Below are positions 1 to 5,247 of a DNA stretch of 5,656 nucleotides, piece after piece. Under the pieces are notes generated by a model, which was given only the letters and a program-made list of their open reading frames with translations, did not search any database and was not told the DNA's origin. Source of the stretch: JBBIVP01 sp037439705 [NCBI: bacterium] (lineage in GTDB: Bacteria; JBBIVP01). Made by a program: the position numbers and the translations under genes. Position 1 is the first letter of the stretch; each line of letters opens with the position of its first letter. The DNA lies in the NCBI GenBank assembly GCA_037439705.1, contig JBBIVP010000144.1, positions 1 through 5,656 of the forward strand, read 5' to 3'.

Positions 1-858
1 CATTCCCCCTTCAATGAGCACCCTTCCTAACTGTTCCTTCCAGTTTTTCGTGGTTCGTGAAGGAAGGACGAGAATATCCATTTGTGAGTATACCCTGTGG
101 ATTTCTTCATGTGGGATTCCACCAATGTAATTAATAAAATTTCTATCACTTATCAATTCCTTCATTTTTCTTTCGTCAGGTCCCCTTCCTGCGATAATCA
201 CTTTTATTTCCGGAAAATCGTCTTTCAAACTAACAACCGCATTTATGAAATCAAAAATCCCTTTATCTTTCCATATCCTGCCCACATACCCTATTACAAC
301 TTCTTTTCCATTTCTTTTTGCGATTTTGAACTCCTCCTCATCAACTCCGTGTGGTATTATAAAAATTTTCTTTTCAAATCCCTTTTTTATCAGCACATCT
401 TTTACCTCATCAGTTAAAGCAATTGCTCCTTTTGATTTTCTGAAAACAAATTTTTCAATAAAGGAGAAGGGAGGAGGATATTTTTTGAAAATGTTTTGTT
501 TGGTATAGAATATAAACGGGATATTGAACCTGTTTGAAAGAAAAGAGAATTGAAATGCAGATATGGAATAGGGCTCTTCATCTATAAAAATCAACTGGGG
601 TTTAATCTCATTCACCACCTTTTTTGCTTTTATGTAGAAATGAGTATGAATGTCCTTGAAGGGTGGAACAATTGCTTTTAATGGATGAGAAGCAAATTTA
701 GCCCCTTCAAGGACATTTTCCTTTTTCTTACCGGTGTGCATTTCTTTCCACGAAGATGGAAAAATGAGGTGAACCTCCATTCCTTTCCCACCCAGTTTTG
801 ACCATACCTTTTGATTTTCAACCACCACACAGGAATGATCTACTACAAGAACCTTCAC
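1..858 (-). CDS. GT4-family glycosyltransferase, C-terminus cut by window edge
   Basis: Retaining GT-B-fold glycosyltransferase, expected to move a sugar from a nucleotide-sugar donor to a growing surface glycan in the cytoplasm. The 286 codons read open to base 1; the family usually has about 350-400 residues, so roughly the last quarter lies outside. The N-terminal domain starts MKVLVVDHS with a W-S-K-L-G-G-K-G-M-E-V stretch typical of the family. The linker reads IIPHGVDEEEF. The donor domain opens with GYVGRIWKDKG (R194 and K199 in the usual phosphate-contacting places), then IIAGRGPDE, YIGGIPHEEI and VLPSR. The EX7E motif is E275/E283. The GTG start overlaps the stop of the upstream GT-C gene as GTGA, so the pair is probably one operon with coupled translation. 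An ATG start is not available nearby (the next Met is codon 27). Family is certain; substrate unknown. Confidence 0.92.
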   Translation of the reverse strand, partial: MKVLVVDHSCVVVENQKVWSKLGGKGMEVHLIFPSSWKEMHTGKKKENVLEGAKFASHPLKAIVPPFKDIHTHFYIKAKKVVNEIKPQLIFIDEEPYSISAFQFSFLSNRFNIPFIFYTKQNIFKKYPPPFSFIEKFVFRKSKGAIALTDEVKDVLIKKGFEKKIFIIPHGVDEEEFKIAKRNGKEVVIGYVGRIWKDKGIFDFINAVVSLKDDFPEIKVIIAGRGPDERKMKELISDRNFINYIGGIPHEEIHRVYSQMDILVLPSRTTKNWKEQLGRVLIEGGM

Positions 859-2210
859 TCTTTTTCCCCTTTCAGTGGCTCTCTTATCATAATAAAAACA
901 AAATCCATTTTATCTACAATTTTTATTATGTACCCATTTCCCTTTAAAAGATAGGGATTATCTGTCACAACATAACAGGGGGAATGTTCGCAGAAAGGTG
1001 GGAAGTCAAAATAAATCTCCGCATCTACCCAGAAGCTCTGGATGAGTTCACTTATTTTTCCAAGAATTACCACCCTGCTTTCTTCAGGAACCTTTTCTAT
1101 TATAAAGTCCCTCATAAGTTTTTGTTTGTGAGTAAAGTGATAATGTTTAAAACTAATAACGGACGAACCAATGATAAAAATAACTGGCAGAAAAAGGTTT
1201 ATAAAAATTTTAGAATAATTCGTTTTATCTTTTACACATTCCAAAAAGGCGGGATAATAAGGGATAAGAAGAAGTATTGGAGGTAATATAAATCTTGGAC
1301 CCATTATGAGTGTCTCAATAAAAGAAGGTCTCTCCTGATAAAAATACCAGAAACTGTAAAAAAGAATGAATATAGAGGTAGAAATAAAAACCTCTATGCG
1401 GAATGGTTTTTTATTAAACAAAGGAATAAGTGGTAAAAGAGGATATATTGTAATGAGTGAAAGACTATAAAGGGAAAAATACTTCAGAAAATATTTTGTG
1501 GTAAAATACCCAGTGTGGGATAAGTCCCCACTAATCTGCCCGTAGGAGAAGTAGTTGTAGAGAATAGTGAGTATTCCAAACGGAAAAAAGCCAGAAATGA
1601 ATAACAAAAACTCCTTCTTCCTTCTTCTCAAAATCAAGGAAAAAGCAAATATGAGAAAAACAAAAATGTTGGGATATCTCATAGAAACTGAAATCCCTGA
1701 AAATAGCCCAGCAAAAATGTAATTTCCCTTCCTCTCGCTCAGGAGAAAATAAAATGATATGAGAAGAGCGATTCCTGATGGAAGGTCAGACATAATTGTC
1801 CTTGAATAAAGAACAAAGGAAGGATAAAAGAGATAAAGAACGCCATAATAAAGTGGAAAGCCAAATTGCTTCAGAATCTTCAAAAAGAAAATGTATCCTG
1901 TAAGGAAATAAAAAAGGGTGCCGAGAAATATCCAGTCTCCTTTCCCAAGAGTAAATGGGACAAGAAAGATGGGCCATCCAAAAGGATGTTTGAAAACAGT
2001 GTGCCTTCCATTCCACAATGTCTGAACAAATTTAAGCCCTGCAATATCAGGGTATATTGTTCCATTTTTAAGTGTATATGCCATACCCATATACCCCCCT
2101 TCGTCAAGGAAAGAATACATCTGTGGATATGTAATAAGATAGATGAGCATAAACAGAAAGAGAAATGCGATACTTATTATCAGGTGTTTAGAACTTCCTG
2201 AGAACTTCAT
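855..2210 (-). CDS. GT-C fold membrane glycosyltransferase (ArnT/PMT-like, GT39/GT83 type)
   Basis: Integral membrane protein of 451 residues with about ten hydrophobic segments (for example 10-27, 93-112, 122-136, 145-158, 182-194, 201-221, 248-265, 274-291, 306-324, 336-354) and a soluble C-terminal part from about 355. The first external loop carries the acidic pair D36-E37 in LDEGGYMGMAY, the expected catalytic/metal region of GT-C enzymes. Further family signs are HPFGWPIFLVPF, the loop SRTIMSDLPSG (136-146) and GPRFILPP near 304. Such enzymes use a polyprenyl-phosphate sugar and act on the outer side of the membrane. The start at 2210 is preferred over the ATG at 2219 (three residues longer), because the longer start lies inside the predicted -10 box and the promoter places the RNA start at 2210-2211. 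It heads an operon with the GT4 gene. Acceptor and sugar cannot be told. Confidence 0.85.
   Translation of the reverse strand: MKFSGSSKHLIISIAFLFLFMLIYLITYPQMYSFLDEGGYMGMAYTLKNGTIYPDIAGLKFVQTLWNGRHTVFKHPFGWPIFLVPFTLGKGDWIFLGTLFYFLTGYIFFLKILKQFGFPLYYGVLYLFYPSFVLYSRTIMSDLPSGIALLISFYFLLSERKGNYIFAGLFSGISVSMRYPNIFVFLIFAFSLILRRRKKEFLLFISGFFPFGILTILYNYFSYGQISGDLSHTGYFTTKYFLKYFSLYSLSLITIYPLLPLIPLFNKKPFRIEVFISTSIFILFYSFWYFYQERPSFIETLIMGPRFILPPILLLIPYYPAFLECVKDKTNYSKIFINLFLPVIFIIGSSVISFKHYHFTHKQKLMRDFIIEKVPEESRVVILGKISELIQSFWVDAEIYFDFPPFCEHSPCYVVTDNPYLLKGNGYIIKIVDKMDFVFIMIREPLKGEKE
865..872 (-). promoter_or_regulatory. Possible ribosome binding site for the GT4 gene
   Basis: AAAGGGGA ends six bases before the GTG start and lies inside the last codons of the GT-C gene. 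It is a purine-rich, imperfect Shine-Dalgarno match. It fits re-initiation after the GTGA stop/start overlap. The three transcription-leading genes in the window show no site at this spacing, so this internal gene seems to start translation differently. Confidence 0.4.
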
Positions 2211-2217
2211 ATTTACC

Positions 2218-2246
2218 ATAATACCCTACAACTTCTAATGCATCAA
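2218..2246 (-). promoter_or_regulatory. Sigma70-type promoter for the GT-C/GT4 operon, leaderless
   Basis: Read on the minus strand, TTGATG (2246-2241) is followed by 17 bases and TATTAT (2223-2218), matching the -35 and -10 consensus at 4/6 and 5/6. Counting from the -10 box, the RNA would begin at 2211 or at the A of the ATG at 2210. There is therefore no room for a ribosome binding site and the mRNA is predicted to be leaderless. Confidence 0.6.
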
Positions 2247-2257
2247 GGGTTTTACCC
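2247..2257. repeat. Small inverted repeat upstream of the GT-C -35 box
   Basis: GGGTTTTACCC is a perfect 4-base inverted repeat around TTT, directly upstream of the minus-strand -35 hexamer. A longer imperfect pairing, AAGGG with CCCTT (2245-2261), is also possible. It could be a regulator site, but it is short enough to occur by chance. Confidence 0.2.
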
Positions 2258-2327
2258 CCTTCCACTAAATCACTTCCTCATGTCCAATATATATTTTTTT
2301 CATACTTCCTTAAACGGGTAAAGCTTA

Positions 2328-2355
2328 ACCTTTTCCATAATTAAATTGAAAAGGT
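2328..2355. promoter_or_regulatory. 8-base inverted repeat overlapping the asnB -35 box, candidate operator
   Basis: ACCTTTTC (2328-2335) and its exact reverse complement GAAAAGGT (2348-2355) are separated by 12 bases, so the arm centres are 20 bases apart, about two helical turns. The right arm covers the -35 hexamer of asnB. This is the geometry of a dimeric regulator site. The AAGGTG in the right arm is too far (about 23 bases) from the asnB ATG to be its ribosome binding site. Confidence 0.35.
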
Positions 2356-2374
2356 GACAATATGATGATATAAA
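2346..2374 (+). promoter_or_regulatory. Sigma70-type extended -10 promoter for asnB, leaderless
   Basis: TTGAAA (2346-2351), a 17-base spacer and TATAAA (2369-2374) match the consensus at 5/6 each, and a TG at 2366-2367 gives an extended -10. The +1 position counted from the -10 falls on base 2381, the A of the asnB start codon. That start codon is fixed independently, because the enzyme family needs Cys directly after Met. No Shine-Dalgarno sequence is present at normal spacing. Confidence 0.65.
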
Positions 2375-2380
2375 TCTAAA

Positions 2381-3364
2381 ATGTGTGGAATATGCGGAGT
2401 ATTTGGTGAAAGGGACAAAAATCTGGTTCTGAAAATGTCCGATATTATTGCTCACAGGGGACCAGATGAAGATGGATACTATGAAGATGAAGAATGCTCC
2501 ATAGGCATAAAAAGGTTATCCATAATTGATCTGGAAACAGGAAATCAACCATTTTCCGATGAAAGGGGGACTTTCTGGGTGGTGATGAACGGCGAAATCT
2601 ATAACTTCTTAGAAATAAGGAAAAATCTTGGTGAAAAAGGGCATAGATTTCGTTCAAAAAGTGATGCGGAGGTAATTCCACATTTATATGAGGAATACGG
2701 GATTGATTTTGTGAAACATCTACGGGGAATGTTTGCTATAGCGCTCTGGGACACAGAAAGAAAAAGAGGTATTCTGATAAGGGATAGATTGGGAAAAACG
2801 CCTCTCTATTATATTTATAAAAATGGAAGAACATATTTTTCATCTGAGATGAAAACTTTTCTCAAAACTCAAATAGTTTCTCCATCTATTAACCCTGATG
2901 CTCTTTCCCTTTACTTAACCCTTCAATATATCCCTGGGGAAGAATCACTGATAAATGGGATAAAGAGATTACTACCAGGGCACATCCTGCTATATGAAAA
3001 TGGAACCTACAGGATACATAAATACTGGGACATAATTTTTGAGGATGAGATATCTGACCAGAGAAAAAATATAGAATCGGTAAGAGAATTGATGGAAGAA
3101 TCGGTAAGGTATCGTTTGTTGAGCGATGTCCATCTTGCCATTACCCTCTCAGGGGGTGTAGATTCTACAGCTATTGCAGTTCTTGCAAGAAGGGAAATTG
3201 CACCTTTAACCACGATTACCATAGGGTATCCAGATTATCCTGATTACGATGAGAGAAAGGAGGGTTTAAAAACAGCCTTAAAGATAGGGGCGAATCACAT
3301 AGAACTTACATTGAGGAAGGAAGATATTAATGTTTTTTCCAAAACTTGTCTGGCATATGGATGA
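2381..3364 (+). CDS. asnB: AsnB N-terminal part: glutaminase domain and start of the synthetase domain
   Basis: Class II glutamine amidotransferase domain, about residues 2-200. Met-Cys2-Gly-Ile-Cys-Gly gives the N-terminal nucleophile Cys2, exposed after Met removal, which fixes the start. Further motifs are HRGPDEDG (25-32), RLSIIDL (45-51), NGEIYN (70-75), the SDAEV box (94-98), LRGMFA (114-119), ALWD (121-124) and RDRLGKTPLYY (134-144; many relatives have Lys where this has Thr140). The synthetase domain starts after about 210 with the PP-loop SGGVDS (257-262), which binds ATP pyrophosphate, then DYDERKEG. True coding ends at the T6 run (codons 318-319). The last dozen or so residues, to the TGA at 3362, are out-of-frame translation. 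On its own this fragment could at most hydrolyse glutamine. Confidence 0.85.
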   Translation: MCGICGVFGERDKNLVLKMSDIIAHRGPDEDGYYEDEECSIGIKRLSIIDLETGNQPFSDERGTFWVVMNGEIYNFLEIRKNLGEKGHRFRSKSDAEVIPHLYEEYGIDFVKHLRGMFAIALWDTERKRGILIRDRLGKTPLYYIYKNGRTYFSSEMKTFLKTQIVSPSINPDALSLYLTLQYIPGEESLINGIKRLLPGHILLYENGTYRIHKYWDIIFEDEISDQRKNIESVRELMEESVRYRLLSDVHLAITLSGGVDSTAIAVLARREIAPLTTITIGYPDYPDYDERKEGLKTALKIGANHIELTLRKEDINVFSKTCLAYG

Positions 3365-4259
3365 CCCTATTGCAGACGAAGCCTGTCTTCCTGTCTATTT
3401 CATTTCAAAATTTGCAAGAGAAAAAGGCATCAAGGTGCTTTTAAGCGGAGAAGGGGGCGATGAAATATTTGGCGGATATCCAAGATATATCCTGCACAGA
3501 ATATTCAATCTCATTGACTTCTTTGGAGGACCTTTAAGGAAAAGCCTTTTAAGGACCTTTTCAAAAGCGCCATTTCTTCCTGAGCGTCTAACCCGTATTT
3601 TGATGAAACTTTCTGTAGATGCTGATGATGACCTATACCTCTGGCTTTCATATTTTGAAGAAAAGGAAAAAATTAAAATGCTTAAAATAAAATCTGGCAA
3701 TTCCTGGGAAAAACTTTCTCCCCTCCTATTAAGAAAGACCCCAACACATATCCTTAACAATATCTTCTATATGGATATAAAAACATGGCTTGTGGAGGAT
3801 ATCCTGATGAAGGCGGATAAGATGTCTATGGCTAACTCTGTTGAAATAAGAACCCCCTTTCTTGACCATCATCTTGTTGAATTTTCTCTAAAAATTCCCC
3901 CCCACCTTAAGGTGAGATGGAAGACGAAGTTTATCTTTAAAAAAGCATTTGAAGGTTTGTTGCCCGAGGAGGTATTGAAAAGACCAAAGAAACCATTTTT
4001 CATTCCACTTCATGAATGGATGACCTCATCCTGGTTAAAGATAATAGAATTTATGCTGCGTAAAAAAGGATGCTTGCTACATGAGATATTAGATGTTAAC
4101 TATATATCTCACCTGCTAAAAGAAGGGGCAGGAAGAGACTACTCAAAAAAACTTTTTATCATTCTTACACTTGGAATTTGGATGGAGATTTTTTTAAACA
4201 AAAAAGAACCAGAAGAAATGACAGAACTACTAAGAAGGGAGTTAACTCCCTCTAAATAA
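3330..4259 (+). CDS. asnB: AsnB C-terminal part: remainder of the synthetase domain
   Basis: This frame carries the rest of the ATP-dependent amide-forming domain. Its genuine sequence begins at the Pro codon at 3339 (residue 320 of the rebuilt protein). The ATG at 3330 is out of frame with the upstream coding and has no ribosome binding site or promoter of its own, so it is not a believable separate start. Motifs, numbered in the rebuilt protein: LSGEGGDEIFGGYPRY (354-369), KADKMSMANSVEIRTPFLDHH (about 477-497, with the family-conserved D, K, E, R and F-L-D), and the positive stretch LKRPKKPFFIPLHEWM near 532-547. The end is normal for the family. A 16-base palindrome overlaps its last codons, and a promoter for the next gene follows. 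Confidence 0.82.
   Translation: MFFPKLVWHMDDPIADEACLPVYFISKFAREKGIKVLLSGEGGDEIFGGYPRYILHRIFNLIDFFGGPLRKSLLRTFSKAPFLPERLTRILMKLSVDADDDLYLWLSYFEEKEKIKMLKIKSGNSWEKLSPLLLRKTPTHILNNIFYMDIKTWLVEDILMKADKMSMANSVEIRTPFLDHHLVEFSLKIPPHLKVRWKTKFIFKKAFEGLLPEEVLKRPKKPFFIPLHEWMTSSWLKIIEFMLRKKGCLLHEILDVNYISHLLKEGAGRDYSKKLFIILTLGIWMEIFLNKKEPEEMTELLRRELTPSK
3333..3338 (+). other. Frameshift site in a T6 run
   Basis: The T6 run, followed by CCAAAA, is where the frame must change by +1. With five Ts the codons read GTT TTT CCA AAA CTT GTC TGG, giving V-F-P-K-L-V-W, the expected family sequence. The A4 run at 3341-3344 could also take the deletion, but that would give F-S-K instead of F-P-K, which fits the family less well. 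Confidence 0.8.
4236..4251. repeat. Perfect 16-base palindrome at the end of asnB
   Basis: AGGGAGTTAACTCCCT is its own reverse complement and covers the last codons of asnB, just before the TAA. As RNA it can fold as a 6-base stem with a TTAA loop. No T run follows, so it is not a classical intrinsic terminator. It could be a weak terminator or stabilising hairpin, a protein site upstream of the GT2 promoter, or chance. Confidence 0.35.
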
Positions 4260-4284
4260 TGCAACCTCTCCCTATAGCAAAGGT

Positions 4285-4313
4285 TTGTATTTACATTTTA
4301 AGAACCATATAAT
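4285..4313 (+). promoter_or_regulatory. Sigma70-type promoter for the GT2 gene, leaderless
   Basis: TTGTAT (4285-4290; 3/6 match), 17 bases, then a perfect TATAAT (4308-4313). The RNA would start at 4320 or at the A of the ATG at 4321. The position of this -10 box just before the start codon matches the two other promoters in the window. The weak -35 suggests a low basal rate or help from an activator. Confidence 0.6.
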
Positions 4314-4320
4314 CAATTAC

Positions 4321-5247
4321 ATGGAGGTTTCGGTTATTGTCCCCACATACAGAAGACCTTACTCATTAAGAAAAACATTAATGGCACTTGAAAATCAGAC
4401 GCTCAAACCGAAAGAGATTATCGTTGTGGTAAGGGAAGATGATAAAGAAACGATAGATTTTTTAAAAAATGAGAGCATAAAAATCTTGAGGGTTGCCTTG
4501 ATAAAGGAAGGGGGGCAGGTAATTGCGATGAACGAAGGGATAAAAAATGCAACAGGAGATGTTATAGCCTTTACCGACGATGACGCAGAACCCGAAGAGA
4601 GATGGATTGAAAAGATAATAGAGCACATGGAAAAAGACGAGGTAGGAGCAGTTGGAGGAAGGGACTTTATAGCAAAGAGAAAGTTTGAGAAAAAGGCAGG
4701 GGTTGTGGGAAAAATCACATGGTTTGGGCGAATAATAGGAAATCATCACTTAGACCCCATCAATCCTGCTTCAAGAGAGGTTGAGGTTATTAAAGGTGTC
4801 AATATGGCTTATAAGAAAAAATACATTGACCGCTTTTCCTTTGACACCTTTCTTGACAACAGAACCAGCCCGATGAATGAAGTTGACATCTGTATGTATG
4901 TGAAGAAAAAGGGGAAAAAGATAATCTACGACCCTAATATAAAAGTTTTTCATTATGTTGAAGAAAGGAAATCCTCCACTCGAGAAGAGGTTCTCTTAAG
5001 CACTTACGAATACTCGCGAAATTACACATATGTGATGCTGAAGCATTTACCCTTGCACAAGAAACTCTTCTTTTTACTCTACTCCTTCCTGATAGGACAG
5101 AGAGCATCGTATGGATTACTCACTTTTATGATTGATGCCCCAATTAAGGGGAAAAAGACATTTGCTCTATTTACCACATCTCAAAAGGGAAAATGGCATG
5201 GATTAAAGGGATATCTCTGGCGTATTTTGCACCTGATTAACCCATAA
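4321..5247 (+). CDS. GT2-family glycosyltransferase
   Basis: Inverting GT-A-fold glycosyltransferase of 308 residues, likely adding a sugar from a nucleotide-sugar donor to a surface glycan on the cytoplasmic face of the membrane. It opens with MEVSVIVPTYRRPYSLRKTL, the nucleotide-binding start of the family. The metal-binding acidic triad is D86-D87-D88 in IAFTDDDAEPEERW, followed by VGGRDF (111-116), KGVNMAYKK (158-166, acceptor region) and NEVDICMYVKKKGKKIIYDP, where E187 or D189 is the probable catalytic base. Residues 243-259 (LPLHKKLFFLLYSFLIG) are hydrophobic after a basic patch and may anchor it to the membrane. The start at 4321 is chosen because the protein family begins there and the promoter puts the RNA start there. 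A TTG at 4285 is in frame but lies in the -35 box. It has its own promoter, although it could also be read through from asnB. Sugar and acceptor are unknown. Confidence 0.9.
   Translation: MEVSVIVPTYRRPYSLRKTLMALENQTLKPKEIIVVVREDDKETIDFLKNESIKILRVALIKEGGQVIAMNEGIKNATGDVIAFTDDDAEPEERWIEKIIEHMEKDEVGAVGGRDFIAKRKFEKKAGVVGKITWFGRIIGNHHLDPINPASREVEVIKGVNMAYKKKYIDRFSFDTFLDNRTSPMNEVDICMYVKKKGKKIIYDPNIKVFHYVEERKSSTREEVLLSTYEYSRNYTYVMLKHLPLHKKLFFLLYSFLIGQRASYGLLTFMIDAPIKGKKTFALFTTSQKGKWHGLKGYLWRILHLINP

Follow-up and report, generated by a model that had tools for sequence, protein, structure and literature searches.

Position of promoter-like sites before three genes of a sugar-polymer-type cluster points to leaderless mRNAs

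We focused on the start regions of three genes in a stretch of 5,656 nucleotides (the window; contig JBBIVP010000144.1 of assembly GCA_037439705.1), where a promoter-like site lies directly before each start codon and a Shine-Dalgarno (SD) site is lacking. The gene order, with a GT4 glycosyltransferase, a GT-C-like membrane protein, asnB, a GT2 glycosyltransferase, and a partial second GT4, reads as a sugar-polymer type cluster (Table 1). Three genes are first in their transcription unit, or apparently so: GT-C, which is read leftward, and asnB and GT2, which are read rightward. The name GT-C is that of the initial annotation, and the protein had no Pfam match at an E value of ≤0.001. The start of asnB is set by its catalytic Cys2, as proposed earlier, and ATG 4321 of GT2 fits as well, given that the match to PF00535 opens at residue 4, aligned with profile position 1; a GT2 homologue with 40% identity aligns from residue 1.

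Table 1. Genes and promoter elements in the window
Feature	Position	Strand	Remarks
GT4 glycosyltransferase	2..858	-	operon-internal; GTG start overlaps GT-C stop; SD-like AAAGGGGA ahead
GT-C-like membrane protein	855..2210	-	first gene of leftward unit
GT-C start ATG (MKFSG...)	2208..2210	-	proposed RNA start is its A
GT-C -10 TATTAT (5/6)	2218..2223	-	7 nt before ATG; top promoter score of the region
GT-C -35 TTGATG (4/6)	2241..2246	-	17-nt spacer
asnB -35 TTGAAA (5/6)	2346..2351	+	17-nt spacer
asnB -10 TATAAA (5/6, without final T)	2369..2374	+	6 nt before ATG 2381; top score of the region
asnB (glutamine-hydrolysing asparagine synthase family)	2381..4259	+	start placed by Cys2 (MCGICG)
GT2 -35 TTGTAT (3/6)	4285..4290	+	17-nt spacer
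GT2 -10 TATAAT (6/6)	4308..4313	+	7 nt before ATG; top promoter score of the region
GT2 glycosyltransferase	4321..5247	+	PF00535 match, profile position 1 at residue 4

The promoter layouts described in the initial annotation were reproduced in all their numbers, namely, TTGATG-17-TATTAT-7-ATG for GT-C, TTGAAA-17-TATAAA-6-ATG for asnB, and TTGTAT-17-TATAAT-7-ATG for GT2. The pattern it had named for a genome-wide check (TATNNT or TANNNT) is, however, broken by asnB: with d as the number of nucleotides between the -10 box and the start codon, a TANNNT box is found in GT-C (TATTAT, d = 7) and GT2 (TATAAT, d = 7), while TATAAA of asnB (d = 6) fails at the final T. We then gave the -35, the spacer, and the -10 a joint score, with Escherichia coli-type weights, over 170 bp upstream of GT-C, 170 bp upstream of asnB, and 120 bp upstream of GT2. 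The three sites rank first in their own regions, with scores of 8.39 (GT-C), 7.31 (asnB), and 8.87 (GT2) versus 5.82, 4.91, and 5.94 for the runners-up, the last of these being the GT2 box again, at a spacer of 18 nt. Shuffles equaled these scores at d = 5 to 8 in 2/400, 7/400, and 0/400 cases, respectively, and anywhere in the region in 37/400, 90/400, and 8/400. It is the position of the sites, more than their strength, that is unusual, and for asnB the strength alone is unremarkable. A stock consensus scan found 11 promoter-like sites in the window, fewer than in shuffled sequence (mean, 17.4). Among the three sites it catches that of GT-C only, missing GT2 (whose -35 matches at just 3/6) and asnB (without the final T), and gives instead GTGACA-17-TAAAAT at 2354 to 2382, overlapping the asnB ATG.

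That no SD site precedes the three ATGs, as claimed earlier, held up: the best duplex with the anti-SD tail in the last 25 nt was -4.0 kcal/mol for GT-C, none for asnB, and -1.4 kcal/mol for GT2, compared to a median of -3.1 kcal/mol for random 25-mers (for a standard tail, which may differ from the 16S end of the host). By contrast, the single internal start examined in the window, GTG 858 of GT4, carries an SD-like site with a duplex of -7.8 kcal/mol, between the 5% and 10% quantiles of random sequence. An SD-like AAGGTGA at 2351 to 2357 (-6.9 kcal/mol, near the 10% quantile for random 25-mers) is too distant for the asnB ATG but well placed for a frame of three codons (ATG ATG ATA TAA, 2362 to 2373) that lies directly upstream of asnB and overlaps its -10 box. 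The two are perhaps a tiny leader frame, or may be there by chance. The same region, between the divergent GT-C and asnB, holds an inverted repeat (2328 to 2338 and 2345 to 2355; two arms of 11 nt with 91% complementarity around a gap of 6 nt). It overlaps the asnB -35 and resembles the operator of a regulator.

What we observed directly are the three sequences, how they rank, and how improbable they are; the RNA ends, leaderless translation, and any genome-wide use of it would follow from these by inference. GT-C, asnB, and GT2 most likely give leaderless mRNAs, a proposal of the initial annotation that is supported by the position of the sites, by their promoter rank, and by the absent SD. 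For asnB and GT2 at least, this is the best explanation. A housekeeping sigma-70-type RNA polymerase would read the three genes from -10 boxes ending 6 to 7 bases before the start, and its preference for starting 7 to 8 bases past the box would place the RNA 5' end at the AUG or at most one base from it. The ribosome would then load on the 5'-terminal AUG without a leader and without SD pairing, while operon-internal genes such as GT4 would use ordinary SD-type initiation. The modal RNA start is reported at 7 bp past the -10 box, with figures of 3%, 70%, 23%, and 4% tied to positions 6, 7, 8, and 9 (PMC5730371). Counted from the box, the A of the ATG is base 7 in asnB and base 8, with a pyrimidine before it, in GT-C and GT2.

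The likeness to Deinococcus-Thermus and Actinobacteria drawn in the initial annotation is fair, but the published spread of such genes is wider and includes Aquificae, Acidobacteria, and others (Zheng 2011, PMC3160421). The shares of TA-led leaderless genes given there are 39.4% on average in Deinococcus-Thermus (5/5 genomes), 26.5% in Aquificae (2/5), 19.2% in Actinobacteria (86/89), and 13.3% in Acidobacteria (3/3). As in the window, Deinococcus-Thermus places a -10 box, distinct from the SD-type motif, directly before the start (PMC3160421 and PMC12340547). Reporters with a -10 box adjacent to open reading frames (ORFs) revealed a spacing requirement in this phylum, and a -35 placed 17 bp upstream raised expression; the same study also scanned the bacterial domain (Zhong 2025, PMC12340547). 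The window differs in being AT-rich (GC 0.366), in having -35 boxes, and in -10 boxes that come near the full TATAAT. It shares with groups of medium GC, Aquificae among them, a TAtaaT-type box, which in those groups lies about 12 bp ahead of the start (PMC3160421, Table 2). In mycobacteria, nearly one-quarter of the transcripts are leaderless, and an ATG or GTG at the 5' end is necessary and sufficient in reporters (PMC4633059). There too RNA begins at the start codon, as proposed here, but the mycobacterial evidence comes from RNA-seq and ribosome profiling and ours from sequence.

To compare positions directly, we tallied TANNNT boxes before annotated starts. Within the first 100 kb of Thermus pTT27, 11/37 first genes have the box at d = 6 or 7 (5 and 6 genes, respectively), and no other distance from 0 to 30 exceeds 2. 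In Aquifex ece1 (49 first genes), 7 boxes fall at d = 7 and at most 4 at any other distance, and boxes matching TATAAT at ≥5/6 at d = 5 to 8 precede 6/49 first genes and 0/12 internal ones. A Geobacillus plasmid has no such distance peak and no ≥5/6 box at d = 5 to 8 (0/34). Archaeal leaderless promoters carry a TATA box about 25 to 37 bp before the transcription start; the elements in the window, at 6 to 13 nt and accompanied by a -35 box, fit a bacterial promoter.

Several observations weigh against leaderless mRNAs at all three genes. The asnB -10 is without the conserved final T, and a second 5/6 box, TATGAT, ends 14 nt before the asnB ATG, although without a fitting -35. The -35 matches are modest throughout (4/6, 5/6, and 3/6 for GT-C, asnB, and GT2). 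Upstream of the GT-C start and in frame with it, a second ATG (2217 to 2219) overlaps the -10 box, so that the start was picked between two. GT2 and asnB share a strand and are 61 bp apart, and no terminator-like site was listed in that gap; GT2 is therefore possibly also read through from asnB and is only presumably the first gene of a unit. The comparison sets contribute as well: TANNNT at d = 5 to 8 also precedes 7/52 internal genes of Thermus pTT27, and a Persephonella plasmid, with the codon use closest to the window among the compared sets (r = 0.925), shows no peak and 0/17 boxes that match TATAAT at ≥5/6 at d = 5 to 8. Promoters as strong as those of the window were found at d = 5 to 8 in 0/20 Thermus and 0/24 Aquifex genes, and strong -35/-10 pairs at this distance are thus not typical of either, although these negatives are weak, since the simple ORF caller used for them made the known peaks of Thermus and Aquifex less sharp (the main control used annotated starts). 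Finally, three genes in one window, chosen for agreeing, cannot set a rate for the genome-wide habit that the initial annotation suggested, and this choice also means that the improbability figures, those above as well as those below, are somewhat overstated.

Chance is nonetheless unlikely. According to this explanation, to which we assign a small probability, the -10-like hexamers arise from AT-rich intergenic DNA, and the true promoters lie further upstream and give ordinary leaders. In its favor, first-order Markov models put the probability of a ≥5/6 TATAAT match ending 5 to 8 nt before the ATG at 0.040 (window model) to 0.088 (intergenic model) per gene, i.e., 4 to 9%; several more 5/6 hexamers occur upstream of GT-C and asnB, the promoter-like sites of the window do not exceed those of shuffles, and a site as strong as that of asnB turns up somewhere in 90/400 shuffled regions. 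For three of three genes, however, the same models give 6e-5 to 7e-4 (approximately doubled if either GT-C start is allowed), the three sites are top-ranked, and shuffles seldom match them at d = 5 to 8. Among real first genes called with the simple ORF caller, a ≥5/6 box at d = 5 to 8 precedes 4/98 in loci with a GC content below 0.42 and 4/189 at GC 0.42 to 0.52, and a site scoring at least as high as that of asnB is found there in just 2/86 and 1/174, respectively. Genes of the asnB family whose start is fixed by MCG have such a box in 2/100 cases (1/28 in the subset with GC below 0.45).

Slightly less probable still is that the RNAs start further upstream and carry short or longer leaders without SD, AU-rich unstructured start regions recruiting the ribosome, possibly with ribosomal protein S1. 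An AT-rich bias at -20 to -10 is reported as not simply attributable to leaderless promoters (PMC5397173), and asnB has the SD-like AAGGTGA and the three-codon frame upstream (duplex, -6.9 kcal/mol). But leadered initiation of this kind predicts neither a -35 at a 17-nt spacing nor a -10 at exactly 6 to 7 nt, and the three regions hold no other site scoring equally high. A more serious possibility, though one we hold to be the lesser, is that only some of the three genes are leaderless, e.g., with GT2 cotranscribed with asnB and served by an extra internal promoter, or with GT-C starting at its upstream ATG. The 61-bp same-strand gap and the in-frame ATG at 2217 to 2219 would agree with this, whereas the sole perfect TATAAT among the three upstream regions is that of GT2.

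The asnB frame itself contains a one-base break between the ORFs at 2381 to 3364 and 3330 to 4259, which align to consecutive stretches of the Asn_synthase family profile. By inference, the break point lies at about 3331 to 3345; a run of six T's and one of four A's are found near it (3330 to 3364). This copy may be defective or decayed, or the product of a sequencing or assembly error; the region upstream of asnB is unaffected. A tRNA search of the window found none, and an Rfam search gave two matches far under the gathering scores, both outside the promoter regions.

To gain an idea about the relatives of the window, we searched with its genes. The C-terminal half of asnB has no close kin in the GTDB 220 species collection, where the top best-segment identity was 37% (among the best 80 of 82 relatives). 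The N-terminal half had matches in 16/16 genomes, with 46% identity for the best by E value and 43 to 47% among the matches listed. At cutoffs of 1e-82 to 1e-86, it was found in 0/297, 0/7, 10/247, 0/301, 0/299, and 2/247 genomes of six phylum samples and in 16/188 of a set of relatives that overlaps the last of these samples. The best match by E value (3.8e-88, 46% identity) was in genome G1419, which was sampled from the same phylum as G012 (locus L071, a record titled “Acidobacteria bacterium”). Given that matches in G1621 (a relative of G1419, GC 0.51; 7.6e-88) and in G556 (8.8e-88; its phylum includes a record with an Elusimicrobia title) are practically as good, asnB is a poor marker of descent. 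GT-C was found in 1/59 genomes (E value, 8e-4) and GT2 in 1/140 at an E value of ≤1e-25 (40% identity) and 0/188 at ≤1e-45. Among viral contigs, GT2 and the N-terminal half of asnB had a single distant match apiece, and GT-C and GT4 had none.

Across the genes of the window, AGA and AGG make up 66/80 arginine codons, and glutamine makes up 1.3% of the residues. Arginine codons rich in AGA and AGG together with low glutamine occur in many thermophiles, and the codon use only suggests a thermophile here. In G1419, the GC content is 0.326 and the AGA/AGG share is 0.81, but the codon use of the Persephonella plasmid correlates slightly better with that of the window (r = 0.925 versus 0.90). For this reason, and because asnB is a poor marker, kinship of the window to G1419 remains putative.

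As a side test, we looked for strong promoters before the genes of G1419. Within its first 389 kb, 13/124 first genes have one at d = 5 to 8 (shuffle mean, 1.0; maximum, 4), and 7/142 do in a hold-out of 400 kb (shuffle mean, 1.3; maximum, 4), where other bins of four positions reach a mean of 5.0 and a maximum of 9. For d = 6 to 9, a range picked after seeing the first half, the overall count (L114 to L133 and L163 to L182) was 25/266 first genes and 3/255 internal ones (shuffle mean, 2.8; maximum, 7), and the 25 compare with a mean of 8.4 and a maximum of 12 in other four-wide bins. In the hold-out, this range gave 9/142 (shuffle mean, 1.5; maximum, 5), with other positions up to 9. The position peak is thus not independently confirmed, and the signature is present in a minority of first genes. 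The spacer is 17 nt in 18 of the 25 promoters at d = 6 to 9. An SD-like motif precedes 1/25 of these genes versus 119/241 other first genes (0/9 versus 66/133 in the hold-out), a lack that is partly mechanical, since the -10 box fills the SD position. In G1553, 7/129 first genes have such promoters (shuffle mean, 0.7; maximum, 3; other positions up to 8), and small samples of seven relatives of G1419 gave 5/113 at d = 6 to 9 (2/34, 1/14, 1/9, 1/14, 0/18, 0/15, and 0/9). The genome of locus L070 (G011), with one asnB gene that has TATTAT at d = 6, was rejected as a user of leaderless initiation, as 0/39 first genes in 85 kb have a strong promoter at d = 5 to 8.

Leaderless initiation is already described in print, both as a mechanism and in its wide distribution (PMC3160421 and PMC12340547), and only the organism may be new; a narrow literature check surfaced, by title, no study of it in candidate phyla or in lineages without cultivated members. 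It has been argued to be an ancient mode of translation initiation (PMC3160421). It is conceivable, though we consider it doubtful, that the window comes from a thermophile-like lineage that has no close kin in the searched genomes and whose unit-first genes would mostly be leaderless and, unlike those of Deinococcus-Thermus, carry near-consensus -35 and -10 boxes. If true, leaderless initiation would prevail in a lineage for which it has so far gone unmeasured. Given that the leaderless share differs strongly between phyla, another lineage, if confirmed genome-wide, would be an added data point and, even though the mechanism itself is not new, would guide annotators on gene starts.

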